From Candidatus Methylomirabilota bacterium (GTDB lineage Bacteria > Methylomirabilota > Methylomirabilia > Methylomirabilales > Methylomirabilaceae), in NCBI GenBank assembly GCA_028869615.1, contig JAGWRQ010000013.1, forward strand, positions 1 through 18,878: a DNA stretch of 18,878 bases, given 5' to 3'. The position numbers were made by a program, and so were the translations under genes. Position 1 is the stretch's first letter. Each line of letters starts with the position of its first letter. Shown here in pieces: positions 8,598 to 18,116 of this stretch. A model generated the notes under the pieces. It ran no database searches, was not told the origin of the DNA, and saw nothing but the letters and a program-made list of their open reading frames with translations.

Positions 8598-10424
8598 TCA
8601 GGCTTGAGCAAACTGAGTGTTGTACAAGCGGCAATAGACCCCGCCCTGCGCCATCAGCTCCGCATGTGTCCCTTGCTCGACACAGCGGCCACCGTCCAGC
8701 ACCAGGATCTTATCGGCCCGGATTACAGTGGAAAGTCGGTGGGCAATCACGAAGGTGGTCCGATTCTGCATGAGCCGATCCAGGGCCTCCTGGACCAGTC
8801 GCTCCGACTCCGCATCGAGAGCCGACGTAGCTTCATCCAGGATCAGGATGGGCGGGTTCTTCAGGATGGCCCTGGCGATGGCGATCCGCTGCTTCTCGCC
8901 GCCGGACAGGCGTACACCCCGTTCGCCGATCCTGGTCTCGTACCGGTTCGGGAGCGCATCGATGAATCGGTCGGCATTGGCGGTCCTGGCCGCCTCCACG
9001 ACGAAGCTTGGGGGCACGTCACGCTGCCCGTACGCGATATTGTTGAAGATGGTATCATCAAACAATAGCGTCTCCTGGGTGACGATCCCCATTTGCGCGC
9101 GCAGTGACGGAAGCGTCACCCGCGCGATATCGGTTCCATCGATCCTGACATAGCCGCCTGTGGGATCGTAGAAGCGGGGAATGAGACCCACGAGGGTGGT
9201 CTTGCCGGCCCCGCTACTGCCCACGATCGCCACAATCTCGCCCAGCTTGGCCCGGAGACTGACCGCTCGCAGCACGACCCGACCGGGCTCATAGGCGAAC
9301 GAGACGTTGTCAAACTGGACCCCTTCCTGCATCCGCGGAAGCGCCACAGCGTCCGGTCGCTCCACCACATCGGGGCGCTGATCCATTAACTCGAAGACGC
9401 GGGCCACTCCCGCCATGCCGCGCTGGATGTTGTTGTTGATCTGGCTGATCCGCTTCACAGGCTGATAGAGAGAGGCCAGCGCCCCAAGGAAGGCCATGAA
9501 CGCCCCAGGGGTGAGGCTCCTGGAAAAGACCAGGTAGCCGCCGACCCAGATGGCGACAACGATGCCGATTGAGCCAAGGACATCCAGCACCGGCGAGGTG
9601 AGCGCATCGACCCGCGTTGTCCGCATGAGAGCCTTGAAGACCTGATCGCTCGCTTCCCAATAGCGCTGCTTCTCATACGCTTCCATGTTGAAGGCCTTGA
9701 CGATTCTGATGCCGGAGATAGTCTCATGCAGGATAGTGTTCAGCTCGGCCCGCCGCTTCTGGACCATGGTCCCCCTCCGGCGGATCTTCTGCCCGAACTT
9801 CACAATCGGCAGGATGGCCACAGGAAGGACCAGGAGCGACAGGAGCGCGAGCTGCCACTTGATGAGGAAGAGGACAGCGATCAGCGCCATGATGTTCAGC
9901 GGCTCTTTCAGAGCGTTGCGGAAAAGTTCGGTCGAGGCGTCGCCCAGGGCTTCGACGTCGGAGCTGAGGCGGGACATGAGCTCGCCTGTTGAACGGCGGC
10001 TGAAAAATGCGAGGGACTGCGTCTGCAAATGGCTATACAGATCGTTCCGTATATCCCGCTGAACGCACTCCGCCACGTACCGCATCGCCAGTTGTTGAAG
10101 GTACGTCAGCGCGCCCTTCGCCAGGAAGACCAGAAAGAGGGCAGCCCCGATGAAGGTGAGAACGCTGATCCGGTTGCCTTGCAGCAACGCCTGCAACTGG
10201 TCCAGCCGCCGACCAAGCGCGGCTTTGATCGGGTCCGGGAGGCTAATCCCCGACCCGCCGCCCTCCGCCGCAAAGAGCCCGTCGAAGATCGGCTGGAGCG
10301 AGCCGATAGAGACCGCATTGAGCACGGCAATGAGGACCAGGCAGACGAGGGCAAAGATGATCCTCGTCCGGTAGGGGGCGGCATACCGGAGTACGCGAAG
10401 GAACTGCTGCAATGGGGTCTGCAT
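8598..10424 (-). CDS. msbA: MsbA-like lipid A/polysaccharide ABC exporter (fused permease and ATPase)
   Basis: A 608-residue half-transporter with an N-terminal six-helix ABC_membrane domain (about 18-335) and a C-terminal ATPase. Walker A is GSSGAGKTT (402-410), the Q-loop is VTQETLLFDD, the signature is LSGGEKQ (506-512), Walker B is ILILDEATSALD (526-537) and the switch histidine is H562. It should act as a homodimer flipping lipid A-core across the inner membrane. It sits between kdsA and core glycosyltransferases, which supports MsbA over a drug exporter. About 20 extra residues with GGGSG lie in the first periplasmic loop. The ATG at 10424 is only four bases from a heptad repeat copy and has just a weak TTTAGG upstream, so the repeat may have replaced the native leader. 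Confidence 0.88.
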   Translation of the reverse strand: MQTPLQQFLRVLRYAAPYRTRIIFALVCLVLIAVLNAVSIGSLQPIFDGLFAAEGGGSGISLPDPIKAALGRRLDQLQALLQGNRISVLTFIGAALFLVFLAKGALTYLQQLAMRYVAECVQRDIRNDLYSHLQTQSLAFFSRRSTGELMSRLSSDVEALGDASTELFRNALKEPLNIMALIAVLFLIKWQLALLSLLVLPVAILPIVKFGQKIRRRGTMVQKRRAELNTILHETISGIRIVKAFNMEAYEKQRYWEASDQVFKALMRTTRVDALTSPVLDVLGSIGIVVAIWVGGYLVFSRSLTPGAFMAFLGALASLYQPVKRISQINNNIQRGMAGVARVFELMDQRPDVVERPDAVALPRMQEGVQFDNVSFAYEPGRVVLRAVSLRAKLGEIVAIVGSSGAGKTTLVGLIPRFYDPTGGYVRIDGTDIARVTLPSLRAQMGIVTQETLLFDDTIFNNIAYGQRDVPPSFVVEAARTANADRFIDALPNRYETRIGERGVRLSGGEKQRIAIARAILKNPPILILDEATSALDAESERLVQEALDRLMQNRTTFVIAHRLSTVIRADKILVLDGGRCVEQGTHAELMAQGGVYCRLYNTQFAQA

Positions 10425-10427
10425 GCC

Positions 10428-10467
10428 TAAAGAACAGCCGTCAGCTATCAGCGGTCAGCCTTTAGCT
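10428..10467 (-). repeat. Direct repeat copy downstream of the four-helix-bundle gene
   Basis: On the minus strand this 40-base copy has AGCTA, then GCTGACCGCTGATAG, then GCTGTTCTTTA. It matches 10807-10846 at 35 of 40 bases in the same orientation. It is built from 7-base units and contains the stop codon of the four-helix-bundle gene (10448-10450). It ends four bases before the msbA ATG. Confidence 0.85.
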
Positions 10468-10807
10468 TCTGAATGAAAGATGTCAACATCCGCTTCACCT
10501 CCGCCACATCAATGGCGAGCCGCTCGTAATCCGAGCTGTTCAGTAAGTTGAGATCACGTGCGAGCATGAGGTGATAGTCCAACTCGCTCGCTGACCCCAT
10601 CGCGATCTGAAGGAACCGTGCCAACTCGGCGTCGCCATCTCTGCCACACCCCTCCGCAATGTTGGCGGGAACGGATGCGGAGGCACGTCGGATCTGGCTC
10701 ATCAGTCCGTACATCTCATCCCGTGGAAACGATTGACTGGCCTTGTAAACCCCCAGAGTCAAGTGATGGGCCTTCTCCCACACCTTCAATTCTCTAAAAT
10801 CTTTCAT
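10448..10807 (-). CDS. Four-helix-bundle protein, 23S rRNA intervening-sequence (S23) family
   Basis: A 119-residue protein with the full family pattern: DFRELKVWEKAHHLTLGVY at the start, FPRDEMYGLMSQIRRASAS in the middle, VPANIAEGCGR (46-56), and a helix with ELARFLQIAMGSASELDYHL. The family was named for ORFs in intervening sequences of some 23S rRNAs. Members form helical-bundle oligomers and resemble the Avd accessory protein of diversity-generating retroelements. Its cellular role is unproven, and no rRNA or reverse transcriptase is present here. The ATG and stop both fall inside or at the edge of two 40-bp direct repeats, so the gene looks like a cassette inserted between kdsA and msbA. 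No strong ribosome site precedes it. Family confidence is high; function is unknown. Confidence 0.93.
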   Translation of the reverse strand: MKDFRELKVWEKAHHLTLGVYKASQSFPRDEMYGLMSQIRRASASVPANIAEGCGRDGDAELARFLQIAMGSASELDYHLMLARDLNLLNSSDYERLAIDVAEVKRMLTSFIQKLKADR

Positions 10808-10846
10808 AAAGAACAGCTTTCAACTATCAGCGGTCAGCTTGTAGCT
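10807..10846 (-). repeat. Direct repeat copy upstream of the four-helix-bundle gene
   Basis: This is the partner of 10428-10467 (35/40 identical, 379 bases apart, same orientation). It abuts the four-helix-bundle ATG and holds the kdsA stop codon (10834-10836). The 7-base rhythm continues upstream to about 10876 as AGCNNNN units, forming the last codons of kdsA. Confidence 0.85.
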
Positions 10847-10856
10847 GATGGCTGAT
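10826..10856. repeat. Hairpin over the kdsA stop codon
   Basis: ATCAGC (10826-10831) pairs with GCTGAT (10851-10856), and TCAGCT (10834-10839) pairs with AGCTGA (10843-10848). This leaves a 3-base loop and a 2x2 interruption with one possible G-T pair. It arises because AGC-type heptads switch to their complement here. There is no run of T directly after it in the transcribed direction, so it is not a classical terminator. It might slow decay or limit read-through. Confidence 0.55.
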
Positions 10857-11709
10857 TGCTGATCGCTAACTGCTGGTTGATATACGGCGCCACCACCTGC
10901 TGAACTGCCAGTAATTGGTCAAGAAGTCCAGGGAGGGCATCGAGCCGGAGCATAGCGGGGCCGTCGCTGGGCGCATTGGCAGGGTCGGGATGGACCTCCA
11001 TGAAGAGCCCATCGACACCTGCCGCCACGGCGGCTCGCGCCAGGTAAGGGATGAAGTCGGACTGTCCCGCGGAGGTATCGCCCGCGCCGCCGGGCAGTTG
11101 CAGACTGTGGGTAATATCGAACAGCACGGGGTAGCCGAAGCTGCGCATGACCGGGAGCGAGCGGATGTCTACCACCAGGTTGTTATAGCCGAAGCTGCTT
11201 CCCCGTTCAGTCAGCACAATCGCCTCCGAGCCGGCAGATCGAAGCTTCTCGACAATATTACCGGCATCCCATGGCGACAGGAATTGGCCCTTCTTGACAT
11301 TGACCGGCTTGCCGGACCTCGCAGCAGCGGTCAGCAGGTCGGTCTGCCGACACAAGAAGGCCGGAATCTGAAGCATATCCAGCACCTCCGCTGCAGCAGC
11401 TACCTGATGTACGTCGTGGACGTCGGAGATCACGGGGATGTCCAGTTTCGTCTTCACCCGCTCCAGGATGCGAAGCCCCTCCTCCAAACCCGGACCGCGA
11501 AATGAACGGCCTGATGACCGATTGGCCTTATCATAAGAAGACTTGAGAACAAAGGGAACCCGGCGCGTCTCGCAGACCGCCTTGATTGCCTCGCCGATCC
11601 TGAGCAGGTGATCCTCGCTCTCGATGACACATGGACCGGCCACCAAGAGTAACGGCGCTCCACCGCCAAGCGCCAACGTGCCGATCCGTACCTGTTTTGT
11701 CAGTGCCAT
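10834..11709 (-). CDS. kdsA: 3-deoxy-8-phosphooctulonate (KDO-8-P) synthase
   Basis: A 291-residue TIM-barrel enzyme that condenses phosphoenolpyruvate with arabinose-5-phosphate. Visible are [10 protein letters not shown] (C27), [53 protein letters not shown] and [11 protein letters not shown], then MEVHPDP. Cysteine in GPC, where E. coli KdsA has asparagine, marks the metal-dependent class typified by Aquifex. The last 14 residues ([14 protein letters not shown]) are encoded by 7-base repeats that also supply the TGA stop, so the native tail was probably overwritten. The frame continues to a TTG at 11724 inside another heptad array. I chose ATG 11709, which fits the family N-terminus, although no clear ribosome site precedes it. 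Product is used with kdsD; kdsB, kdsC and waaA are not in the window. Confidence 0.96.
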
Positions 11710-11723
11710 AGGGTGAATGGGCA

Positions 11724-11753
11724 AGCGGTCAGCGGTCAGCGGTCAGCGGTCAG
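11724..11753 (-). repeat. Four perfect tandem heptads (minus strand GACCGCT) in the pyrG-kdsA gap
   Basis: The plus strand reads AGCGGTC four times in a row with no mismatch, then AG. The same unit occurs once in each direct repeat around the four-helix-bundle gene. It lies 15 bases before the chosen kdsA ATG, where a ribosome site would be expected. The rest of the 79-base gap (11754-11788) shows nothing recognisable. Confidence 0.9.
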
Positions 11754-11788
11754 GAAAATCACCTTTCTTGACCGTAACCTCCAGACCC

Positions 11789-15420: not shown

Positions 15421-15511
15421 GAGACCTCCCTTGTATGCGGGGTACGGGGTATAGGGTGTCTCGGGTGTACCTTCCTTCCGGCTGCCCTGTACCCTACACC
15501 CTAGTTGCTCA
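15421..15511. repeat. Inverted GC-rich heptad-like repeats between the sugar transferase and epimerase genes
   Basis: The plus strand reads GCGGGGT, ACGGGGT, ATAGGGT (15437-15457) and later CTGCCCT, GTACCCT, ACACCCT (15481-15501), two sets of 7-base units facing each other. Their pairing would give an imperfect 18-bp stem with a loop of some 25 bases on either strand. There is no T run, so it is not an obvious intrinsic terminator. The remainder of the 91-base gap holds the epimerase ribosome site. The copy at 15436-15451 recurs inverted at 516-531. Confidence 0.65.
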
Positions 15512-16915: not shown

Positions 16916-18116
16916 GGCCTACGGCGGATTCGCCCCGTTGTTTCCACGCCTCGTAGCGCTCGGCCACGAAGGCAGACATCCGTTTCTCGAAGATCGAGCG
17001 ATCAAAGGTAAGGGCGTGGGCGCGAAGCGCCTCAGGATCGAATCGATCGGCTGAGCGCTCGAACAGGTCGATGGCCTGGATCAACGCCTCGACTGTCTGC
17101 TCGTAGAAGAACACGCCGGTGGAAGTTCGAGGTTCGACACCGAAGACGTTTTGTAACTCTGAACGTTGAACATTGAACATTGAACGATCCAACGGAACCA
17201 CGGTTTCCGTAACGCCACCCTTCCCGTACGCGATCACCGGCCTCCCACTGGCCATGGCTTCGACCGGAAGAATTCCGAAATCCTCTTCACCCGGAAAGAT
17301 CAGCGCCCGGCAACGGCTTAGAAGATGGGCAACCTCACCGTCCGGACGCCACCCCAGAAATTCGATGGTGGGACCGGCGATGCGCCGCAGGCGACGGCCC
17401 TCCTGACCTTCACCCACAATCACCAGACGTCGCCGAAGCTGGTTACAGGCCTCAATAGCAAGATCGATCCGCTTGTACGGCGCAAGGGCCCCAGCCACGA
17501 GGTAGTAGTCGTCTGTCCGGTCAGCGATATGAAAACGGGTGGTCTCAACCGGTGGATAGATCACCTGGGCCTCCCGGTCGTAGTGGCGTCGGATCCGATC
17601 TGCCACATGTCGGGAGATGGCAACAAAGTGATCGACCCGAGTGTTGACCGCGATGTCCCATCGCCGCAAGCGGCCCGTAATGGCCCGAAGAAGAGGGCGT
17701 GAGAGAGGGCCCATCCGTCCCCGGCCCACGTAGGCCTCCTGCAGATCCCAGATGTATCGCATGGGTGTGTACAGATAAGCGATGTGAAGCGCGCCAGGCG
17801 GAGGCCTGACCCCCTTGGCCACACAGTGGCTGCTGGAGAGGATCAGATCGTATCCGTCAAGCGAGAATCCCTCGACGGCCCACGGAAATAACGGCAGATA
17901 GTAGCGGTAGCGGCTCGCCGCAAACGGCAATGCTTGGATGGCCGACGTTCGGATTCGACGACGCTCGATGAGCGTGGTTACACTTCCCTTCACGTGCAGC
18001 AGGGTGAAGAGGTCCGCGCTCGGAAAGAGCTCACAGAGGGCCTCCAGACAGCGCTCTCCGCCCCGCATCCCCGTCAGCCAATCGTGCACGATGGCGACCC
18101 TGGCCTGGGTGATCAT
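16896..18116 (-). CDS. Glycosyltransferase family 4 (WbaZ-like mannosyltransferase)
   Basis: A 406-residue GT-B enzyme. VAIVHDWLTGMRGGERCLE (7-25) and AYLYTPMRYIWDLQEAYVG are typical of WbaZ-like O-antigen mannosyltransferases. The donor lobe has YYLVAGALAPYKRIDLAIEA (204-223). FPGEEDFGILPVEAMASGRPV carries EX7E residues E278 and E286. Between TETVVPLD and TGVFFYEQT, where relatives usually have only a few residues, there is an extra stretch of about 20; residues 311-320 come from TTGAACA-type heptads. The upstream frame is open to 18176, but ATG 18116 overlaps the methyltransferase stop as ATGA and follows AAAGGA, so I start there. Specificity for mannose is inferred from similarity only. 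Confidence 0.9.
   Translation of the reverse strand: MITQARVAIVHDWLTGMRGGERCLEALCELFPSADLFTLLHVKGSVTTLIERRRIRTSAIQALPFAASRYRYYLPLFPWAVEGFSLDGYDLILSSSHCVAKGVRPPPGALHIAYLYTPMRYIWDLQEAYVGRGRMGPLSRPLLRAITGRLRRWDIAVNTRVDHFVAISRHVADRIRRHYDREAQVIYPPVETTRFHIADRTDDYYLVAGALAPYKRIDLAIEACNQLRRRLVIVGEGQEGRRLRRIAGPTIEFLGWRPDGEVAHLLSRCRALIFPGEEDFGILPVEAMASGRPVIAYGKGGVTETVVPLDRSMFNVQRSELQNVFGVEPRTSTGVFFYEQTVEALIQAIDLFERSADRFDPEALRAHALTFDRSIFEKRMSAFVAERYEAWKQRGESAVGHAQATQ
17157..17186 (-). repeat. In-frame TTGAACA-type heptad repeat inside the WbaZ-like gene
   Basis: The plus strand shows CTCTGAA, CGTTGAA, CATTGAA, CATTGAA, CG: four 7-base units with small changes. In the gene frame it is translated as RSMFNVQRSE without a stop, whereas the opposite strand contains in-frame TGA. 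It falls in a surface loop position after the EX7E motif. Confidence 0.85.

Follow-up and report, generated by a model that had tools for sequence, protein, structure and literature searches.

We propose that the S23 gene between kdsA and msbA in the window, by which we mean the whole 18,878-nucleotide stretch of a Candidatus Methylomirabilota contig (JAGWRQ010000013.1) analysed here, is a resident copy of a mobile element in which an S23-family gene is bracketed by arms of tandem heptads, a reading to which we assign a probability of roughly 0.72. The plan of inverted arms and heptad arrays around an S23 gene recurs across many bacterial phyla. A small mobile or repeat-associated element had been suspected in a preliminary description of this DNA, and the suspicion is supported by filled and empty plasmid sites, by arms that appear to move with the gene, and by heptads standing without the gene at the kdsA-msbA junction of relatives.

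Results

An S23 gene between heptad arms in the window

The identification of the bracketed gene as S23 is confirmed by two profiles above their cut-offs, PF05635 (E 5e-38, 130 bits against a cut-off of 33.8) and TIGR02436 (E 6.9e-38, 129.2 bits against 24), and the AlphaFold2 model consists of four helices with a mean pLDDT of 94.5 (Table 1). Scans of the protein against Pfam and NCBIfam returned only IVP/Avd-type families at E ≤ 0.001 and no transposase, the Y1 domain included, and the Avd profiles scored below their cut-offs (bAvd, 22.9 of 40; DivGenRetAVD, 25.1 of 80). Rfam gave no match in the window, nor in the 20 loci tested among the 80 world loci described below.

The two 40-nt direct repeats on which the preliminary description was built are identical at 35 of 40 positions and lie 379 nt apart, against a best 40-nt match of 28 in 60 dinucleotide shuffles of positions 9800-11400, and in a repeat search the match lengthens to 49 nt (82% identity). 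They frame the S23 gene as had been described, one copy overlapping the first base of the ATG and the other containing the stop codon, and they reach the flanking genes as well, the kdsA stop (10834-10836) lying inside one copy and the msbA start (10424) just past the other (10428). A third heptad array, inverted and absent from the earlier account, makes the repeat copy upstream of S23 one half of a hairpin, and the order in gene direction is TCAGC heptads, GCTGA heptads, S23 and GCTGA heptads. The arm pair around S23 genes in general is inverted, not direct. The gene plus one repeat had been taken for a unit; the association of gene and repeat stands, but the direct repeats are not the ends of the element, being two of its three arms. 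The C-terminal tail of KdsA is read from the left heptad arm, and the kdsA stop codon falls in the right arm (10834-10875).

Table 1. Features of the window discussed in the text
Feature	Position	Strand	Support
S23 / 23S_rRNA_IVP four-helix-bundle gene, 119 aa	10448..10807	-	profile matches; AlphaFold2 model
Left inverted arm, TCAGCNN heptads (gene direction); doubles as kdsA C-terminus coding	10842..10875	-	
Right arm 1, GCTGANN heptads directly before S23 start; holds kdsA stop	10807..10846	-	
Right arm 2, GCTGANN heptads including S23 stop; direct repeat of right arm 1	10428..10467	-	
kdsA, flanking gene	10834..11724	-	
msbA-like ABC transporter, flanking gene	8598..10424	-	best NCBIfam match MsbA, below its cut-off
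Solo GCTGACC heptad array, gene-free, pyrG-kdsA gap	11719..11756	-	
AGGGTNT / ACCCTNN heptad hairpin, gene-free, between two sugar genes	15421..15511	-	by eye
TTGAACN heptads (17155-17189) and degenerate second arm, inside glycosyltransferase ORF	17100..17189	-	

Further heptad arrays are found elsewhere in the window. The hairpin between two sugar genes is weaker than the others and falls below the lag-7 threshold, and the homologous gap carries other motifs in some relatives; at the site inside the glycosyltransferase ORF, the heptads of relatives have motifs different from this one, at the same codon and in frame (L270-L280). One S23 gene was found in the window genome (G000; 2.06 Mb in 278 contigs), together with 241 matches to GCTGANNGCTGANNGCTGA at up to two mismatches, compared with 9 for the reversed pattern.

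Inverted heptad arms accompany S23 genes in general

A world set was obtained by scanning contigs with 16 genus S23 proteins, and the best 80 of at least 587 confirmed loci were kept, which biases the set to close relatives. Among these best 80 of at least 587, inverted arms above the 99th percentile of the controls flank 50 of 79 S23 loci (control positions, 6 of 759), inverted arms or a 7-9-nt array are present at 72 of 79 (control positions, 57 of 759), and seven of 79 show neither sign. In the genus, 26 S23 genes had flanks long enough to score: 21 have inverted arms (controls, 2 of 102), 25 have either these or a 7-9-nt array to one side or both (controls, 18 of 102), and one has neither.

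Within 200 nt, a lag-7 identity of at least 17/24 was seen upstream of 43 of 80 and downstream of 42 of 79 S23 genes of the world set (best 80 of at least 587), compared with 49 of 1236 windows taken from other parts of these loci. For lag 5 the same set gave 2 of 80 upstream and 0 of 79 downstream, and the control lags 4, 5, 10, 11 and 13 were near zero beside S23 genes; lag 8 gave 12 of 80 and 10 of 79, which indicates that a period-8 class of arms exists. Arms of period 9 (L053) or period 8 take the place of period 7 at some S23 genes. When S23 genes were set against other ORFs of the same loci (again the best 80 of at least 587), an inverted score of at least 30 was reached by 46/77 against 4/120, and lag-7 arrays stood on both sides of 24/77 against 2/120, upstream of 39/77 against 10/120 and downstream of 35/77 against 16/120. 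Lag-7 arrays next to ORFs other than S23 are not rare. A search of phage records for S23 gave no match, and IMG/VR yielded 29 S23 loci, of which 13 were inspected.

Close S23 relatives share a heptad motif across phyla

Arm pairs were compared among 104 of 107 loci, leaving out L092, L136 and L168 (ORF from the match start of at most 80 aa), with arms counted as shared at a score of at least 30 and phyla assigned from record titles. The inter-phylum pairs, which are not independent, being drawn from 31 loci and few subfamilies, share arms in 33 of 57 cases at 60% identity or more and in 65 of 4149 below; by identity, the share is 59/4091 below 55%, 6/58 at 55-60%, 14/31 at 60-65% and 19/26 at 65% or more. 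Three of the 33 pairs involve L139, a possibly misbinned Limnohabitans MAG that has long arms in common with Flavobacterium. When the arms were permuted within phyla, the observed share for pairs of at least 60% identity was reached in 0 of 2000 permutations.

The window's subfamily is accompanied by TCAGC/GCTGA arms in Hydrocoleum (a cyanobacterium), a Blastocatellia MAG (Acidobacteriota), Nitrospinota, Nitrospirota, a Methylobacillus MAG (Pseudomonadota) and a deltaproteobacterial MAG (L091-L095, L100), and L096-L099, 57-63% identical to the window protein, are flanked by different arms. A second subfamily, with CTGACTC-type arms, comprises L047 of the genus genome G002 and the cyanobacterial loci L112, L314, L324 and L325 (64-68% identical), the last three being plasmid genes; L127 (Planctomycetota) matches L047 by an arm score of 43 with the related motif CTGTATT, and L326, 61% identical to L047, has another motif. 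Exact GCTGANN had been predicted for six virus-collection contigs (L282-L287), and the prediction failed, since all six carry GCCGANN, one base off; five of these contigs have an ORF with 59-70% identity to the window protein, and L284 and L285 have an identical flank. Plasmid relatives L311 and L312 carry GCTAA-type arms. The heptad motifs seem to drift along with the S23 protein.

Gene and arms are present or absent together at plasmid sites

With the Trichormus variabilis plasmid C locus (site 1) as query, 11 records covered at least 80%. Three of them carry the insert (one Scytonema and two T. variabilis sequences that are identical) and six are without the gene; the five of these that were read, four of them distinct, have flanks 96-98% identical, a 13-nt gap and no heptads. 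Nostoc C052 pC052_E retains one arm and an apparently decayed S23, Brasilonema pBOCT2 has a heptad hairpin and no gene, and pBOCT1, a less complete match, has no insert. The filled form is longer by 428 nt, a length that takes in the arms, and this insert lies between two GTAAT copies, by eye a 5-bp duplication, and two filled forms differ by 14 nt, that is, by two heptads.

At site 2, on Nostoc plasmids, three forms are filled, with the S23 ORF shortened in one of them, and five forms that were read are empty; the TTCTA that stands on either side could be a duplication, yet it resembles the heptads. One of these empty plasmids has another S23, 40% identical and with different arms, a gene further along, at a site that is empty in six others and bordered by imperfect TAATG/TTATG. 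Gene and arms are also absent together in three empty forms of an Aulosira site and, by single comparisons, in Picosynechococcus PCC 7002 relative to PCC 7003 (cmr2-cmr3) and between Calothrix NIES-22 and Tolypothrix PCC 7601; the end of the upstream gene differs at 10 of 30 bases in the Picosynechococcus pair and at 8 of 30 in the other.

Over the six plasmid sites, a target duplication is clear at one (GTAAT) and ambiguous at two, the ends not being placed at three, and the empty forms read carry no heptads by eye. The inserts of sites 1 and 2 contain no gene besides S23, and several of the filled and empty examples are complete plasmids. The comparisons left out H31, H64, H65, H74, H75 and H77 and most matches of the later searches. 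The joint presence or absence of gene and arms suggests that they arrive at plasmid sites as one unit. Insertion at a pre-existing heptad repeat, as initially envisaged, may hold at chromosomal sites, but the plasmid empty forms read had no heptads to receive the gene.

Chromosomal junctions across the genus

S23 is patchy in the genus, being present in 12 of 15 genomes with 0-7 copies each (27 of the 35 matches found were taken further); several of these genomes are only 80-83% complete, and G005 is a complete one of 2,752,854 bases. The order pyrG-kdsA-msbA is kept in all 13 genomes in which a true kdsA was found, and at the kdsA-msbA junction three of them (G000, G001 and G004) carry S23 and the other ten do not. 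Heptads without the gene do occur at this junction: G008 has a hairpin and no S23. A single GCTGA array follows a short stretch resembling the end of S23 in G002 and G011, an apparent remnant is seen in G012, a different heptad family, AGGGTNT, occupies the junction in G005, G006, G010, G013 and G014, and a third family is found in G009.

In the pyrG-kdsA gap, G001 and G006 carry a different S23 (41-45% identical) between AGGGT-type arms, G007 has a piece of S23 at a contig end, seven other genomes have AGGGT-type heptads alone, G000 has a GCTGA array, and G011 and G012 have no insert; where others have heptads, an unrelated 1.37-kb insert is found in G009 (L073). AtpG matches were obtained in 11 of 15 genomes and nine atpA-atpG junctions were read: G001, G002 and G008 have S23 with CCCGAAA arms, short arrays of the AGGGT type are found in G005, G006, G011, G012 and G013 and a different motif in G009, in gaps of 32-90 nt. 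The rfaE-pyrG gap of G002, G012 and G004 (L270, L272, L281) contains a palindrome of about 130 nt, of the GTCATTGCGAGGGAGCG type, between heptad arms. In L048 of G009 (1483-2361), the S23 ORF continues in frame into a protein that is pseudopilin-like by eye.

In a kdsA-msbA-pyrG tree, most inner nodes of which have support of 41-90, the genomes with S23 at kdsA-msbA do not form a clade. Their three S23 genes share 83-89% DNA identity, compared with 83-85% for kdsA, and the pairwise differences at codon positions 1/2/3 are 8/7/35, 8/11/41 and 6/10/24. The proposal of a new insertion at kdsA-msbA is thus unsupported, the divergence of S23 (11-17%) being close to that of kdsA (15-17%) and falling mostly on third codon positions, and a recent simple insertion at the window site was set aside, given that three genomes share S23 with kdsA-like divergence, although support at most inner nodes of the tree is only 41-90. 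The S23 gene of this junction looks old and under selection, and the short S23-tail-like stretches in two relatives point to an old presence with repeated loss, the gene having probably been lost several times.

Dispersal and turnover of gene-free heptads

CGAAACY heptads, counted with the element's own arms, have 47, 95 and 66 matches in the three carriers of the corresponding S23 and 0-8 in the twelve other genomes, one S23 match outside the carriers (G006:C8:148631) being left untyped; the reversed control gave 0, and the chance of three random genomes of 15 being the top three is 1 in 455. TTGAACN was predicted to be highest in G001 and G010, and the fit was partial: the counts are 194 in G001, 181 in G013, 164 in G014, 125 in G010, 75 in G002 and 0-17 in the others (reversed control, 8 in G003 and 1 each in G008 and G009), and G013, G014 and G002 are high without that S23. 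Exact GCTGA matches number 69-116 in the five genomes with that S23 and 4-109 in the ten without it, and G005, in which no S23 was detected, has frequent GCTGA arrays. A dispersal of AGGAGKC in G002, predicted beforehand, failed, all 31 matches lying at the S23 locus. GGGAATA, counted in 20 genomes, was high only in four of five cyanobacteria and is therefore confounded by phylum. Over the phylum, GCTGA arrays occur in 25 of 26 genomes with S23 above the cut-off and in 9 of 69 without, a distribution that follows phylogeny. Per 400 kb, G005 has 25 lag-7 arrays and G006 has 19; no such array was counted in 400 kb from G046 and G047, two genomes of the same class without S23.

In orthologous gaps of the window's gene cluster, the motifs differ between species and some sites have mixed-motif arms. 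The site in the glycosyltransferase frame carries CCCGAAA in G002 and G008, both of which own a CCCGAAA-type S23, and not in G001, another owner. We infer that some process may convert such sites in place.

Array structure

Statistics were taken over 51 GCTGA arrays from 70 genus loci and 8 of other genomes, repeats removed, with detection seeded on the pentamer and requiring at most one mismatch per unit and at least three units. The pentamer is 92-99% fixed, in part by construction, since it seeded the detection; 44 of the 51 arrays have 3-4 units, and the two spacer bases are nearly free. Between the inverted arms of 8 pairs the spacer bases match at 4 of 42 positions, with 27% expected, and the idea that the arms are copies of each other was rejected on this ground. 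The pattern fits a protein reading one pentamer per step, and XCC0516 (2gsc), a relative with a solved structure, is described as a toroidal homopentamer (PMC4990558).

Discussion

Based on these findings, we propose that the S23 protein would act as the element's own recognition factor, close S23 relatives sharing one heptad motif, that gene and arms would move as one unit, between phyla too, and that the gene-free arms would be dispersed non-autonomous copies. From the array pattern and the homopentamer of XCC0516, a ring of five S23 subunits may bind the array with about one heptad per subunit, and, because the spacer bases are free and unmatched between arms, the array may be bound as single-stranded RNA or DNA. 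Cutting or copying would fall to a recruited enzyme; S23 itself matched no transposase profile of Pfam or NCBIfam. If S23 is the true driver of movement, it would be a mobile-element protein unlike any transposase class that we know of.

As a tentative first guess, the movement could include an RNA-templated step, by analogy with Avd of diversity-generating retroelements (DGR), which is homologous to PF05635 and essential for retrohoming (PMC10053308); the window S23, unlike DGR Avd, scores below the Avd-profile cut-offs. More doubtful is the further thought that S23/Avd rings constitute a mobile-element class of their own, in which a ring with a heptad template would convert hairpins to its own motif in an RNA-templated manner. 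Such rewriting in place would explain the mixed-motif arms and the differing motifs at orthologous sites, one of which lies in the glycosyltransferase frame, and, if it is true, the intervening sequences (IVSs) of 23S rRNA and DGR Avd would be specialised descendants.

In our best reading, the S23/heptad element works like the RAYT/REP system and is not a member of it, as S23 matches no transposase family. The system of REP-associated tyrosine transposases, RAYT/REP, is characterised by inverted flanks, co-evolution of protein and repeat, and an abundance of cognate repeats that follows the gene (PMC2817692). Similarly, the S23 ORF lies between inverted repeats, with heptad arms in place of REPs, and the S23 subfamily and its repeats co-vary, as in that co-evolution; the copy-number sign is clear for CGAAACY, partial for TTGAACN, weak for GCTGA and absent for AGGAGKC. 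Unlike RAYT, S23 is a four-helix bundle without a transposase match, and its repeats are tandem heptads with free spacer bases. The 23S rRNA IVSs likewise hold an S23-family ORF in a stem of inverted repeats and are sporadically spread, their mobility having long been suspected (PMC4990558); the present element differs in lying apart from rRNA, none being found in the window or the 20 tested loci, in having stems of heptad arrays, and in its dispersed gene-free copies. Intergenic heptad arrays, often as close inverted pairs in Xanthomonas, are also known from the GGGAATC-type repeats of Xanthomonas and Nostoc, which have been studied as quadruplex-forming repeats (PMC4692102); in the excerpted text of that paper the terms four-helix, 23S and XCC0516 were not found.

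The STRR heptanucleotide repeats of cyanobacteria are dispersed tandem heptads as well, and we know of no protein partner for them. A link between S23 and heptads was not found in the literature screened, mostly by titles and abstract openings. The S23 family, widespread and of unknown function, thereby gains a candidate partner and a testable role, the element bears on how rRNA intervening sequences move, and the heptad repeats, which PMC4692102 deals with as simple sequence repeats, gain a candidate cause.

Among the alternatives, it is unlikely that another enzyme, such as an IS200/IS605-type transposase or a reverse transcriptase encoded elsewhere, mobilises the hairpins with S23 as a passenger. 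This explanation overlaps with the preferred one, and the odds do not sum to one. It would accommodate the 119-aa protein that no transposase family matches and the inserts at plasmid sites 1 and 2 that bring no other gene, whereas a link between S23 subfamily and motif across phyla would be unexpected of a passenger. Another process might instead spread the heptad hairpins, with S23 elements inserting only into hairpins of their cognate motif in the way that homing elements and telomere-repeat retrotransposons enter cognate sites. We consider this quite unlikely: gene-free hairpins or arrays do stand at the same junctions (in G008 at kdsA-msbA, and as AGGGT-type heptads in seven genomes at pyrG-kdsA), heptads persist in G005 without a detected S23, and they even occur inside a coding gene, but the empty forms read at six plasmid sites are free of heptads, and the six atpA-atpG junctions read without S23 carry different motifs.

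It is improbable, too, that S23 is a host or domesticated RNA-binding regulator, comparable to a TRAP-like ring, with the dispersed hairpins as mRNA targets and mobility as an incidental matter. The fixed pentamer with its free two-base spacer resembles a binding register (detection being seeded on the pentamer), S23 is under purifying selection, and hairpins lie between genes of a cluster; against these stand the motifs that differ at orthologous sites among species of one genus, the patchy occurrence of S23 (12 of 15 genus genomes, 0-7 copies) and the plasmid insertions at heptad-free sites. Ordinary satellite growth by slippage at terminators, with the S23 link due to chance or assembly artefact, is extremely improbable and already disfavoured by the controls, since the control lags (4, 5, 10, 11 and 13) give values near zero and scores at other genes are much lower; near-identical elements do differ by two heptads in arm length, as slippage would produce, but several of the examples are complete plasmids.

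The plasmid elements also touch on cas loci, in which 23S_rRNA_IVP genes have been reported (PMC3936711) and for which S23 elements between cas genes may be the explanation. Such elements were observed on cyanobacterial plasmids (L311, L326, L328) at cas6-cas4 and cmr2-cmr3; PCC 7002 is without the cas-locus element of PCC 7003, and others seem to be likewise by listing.
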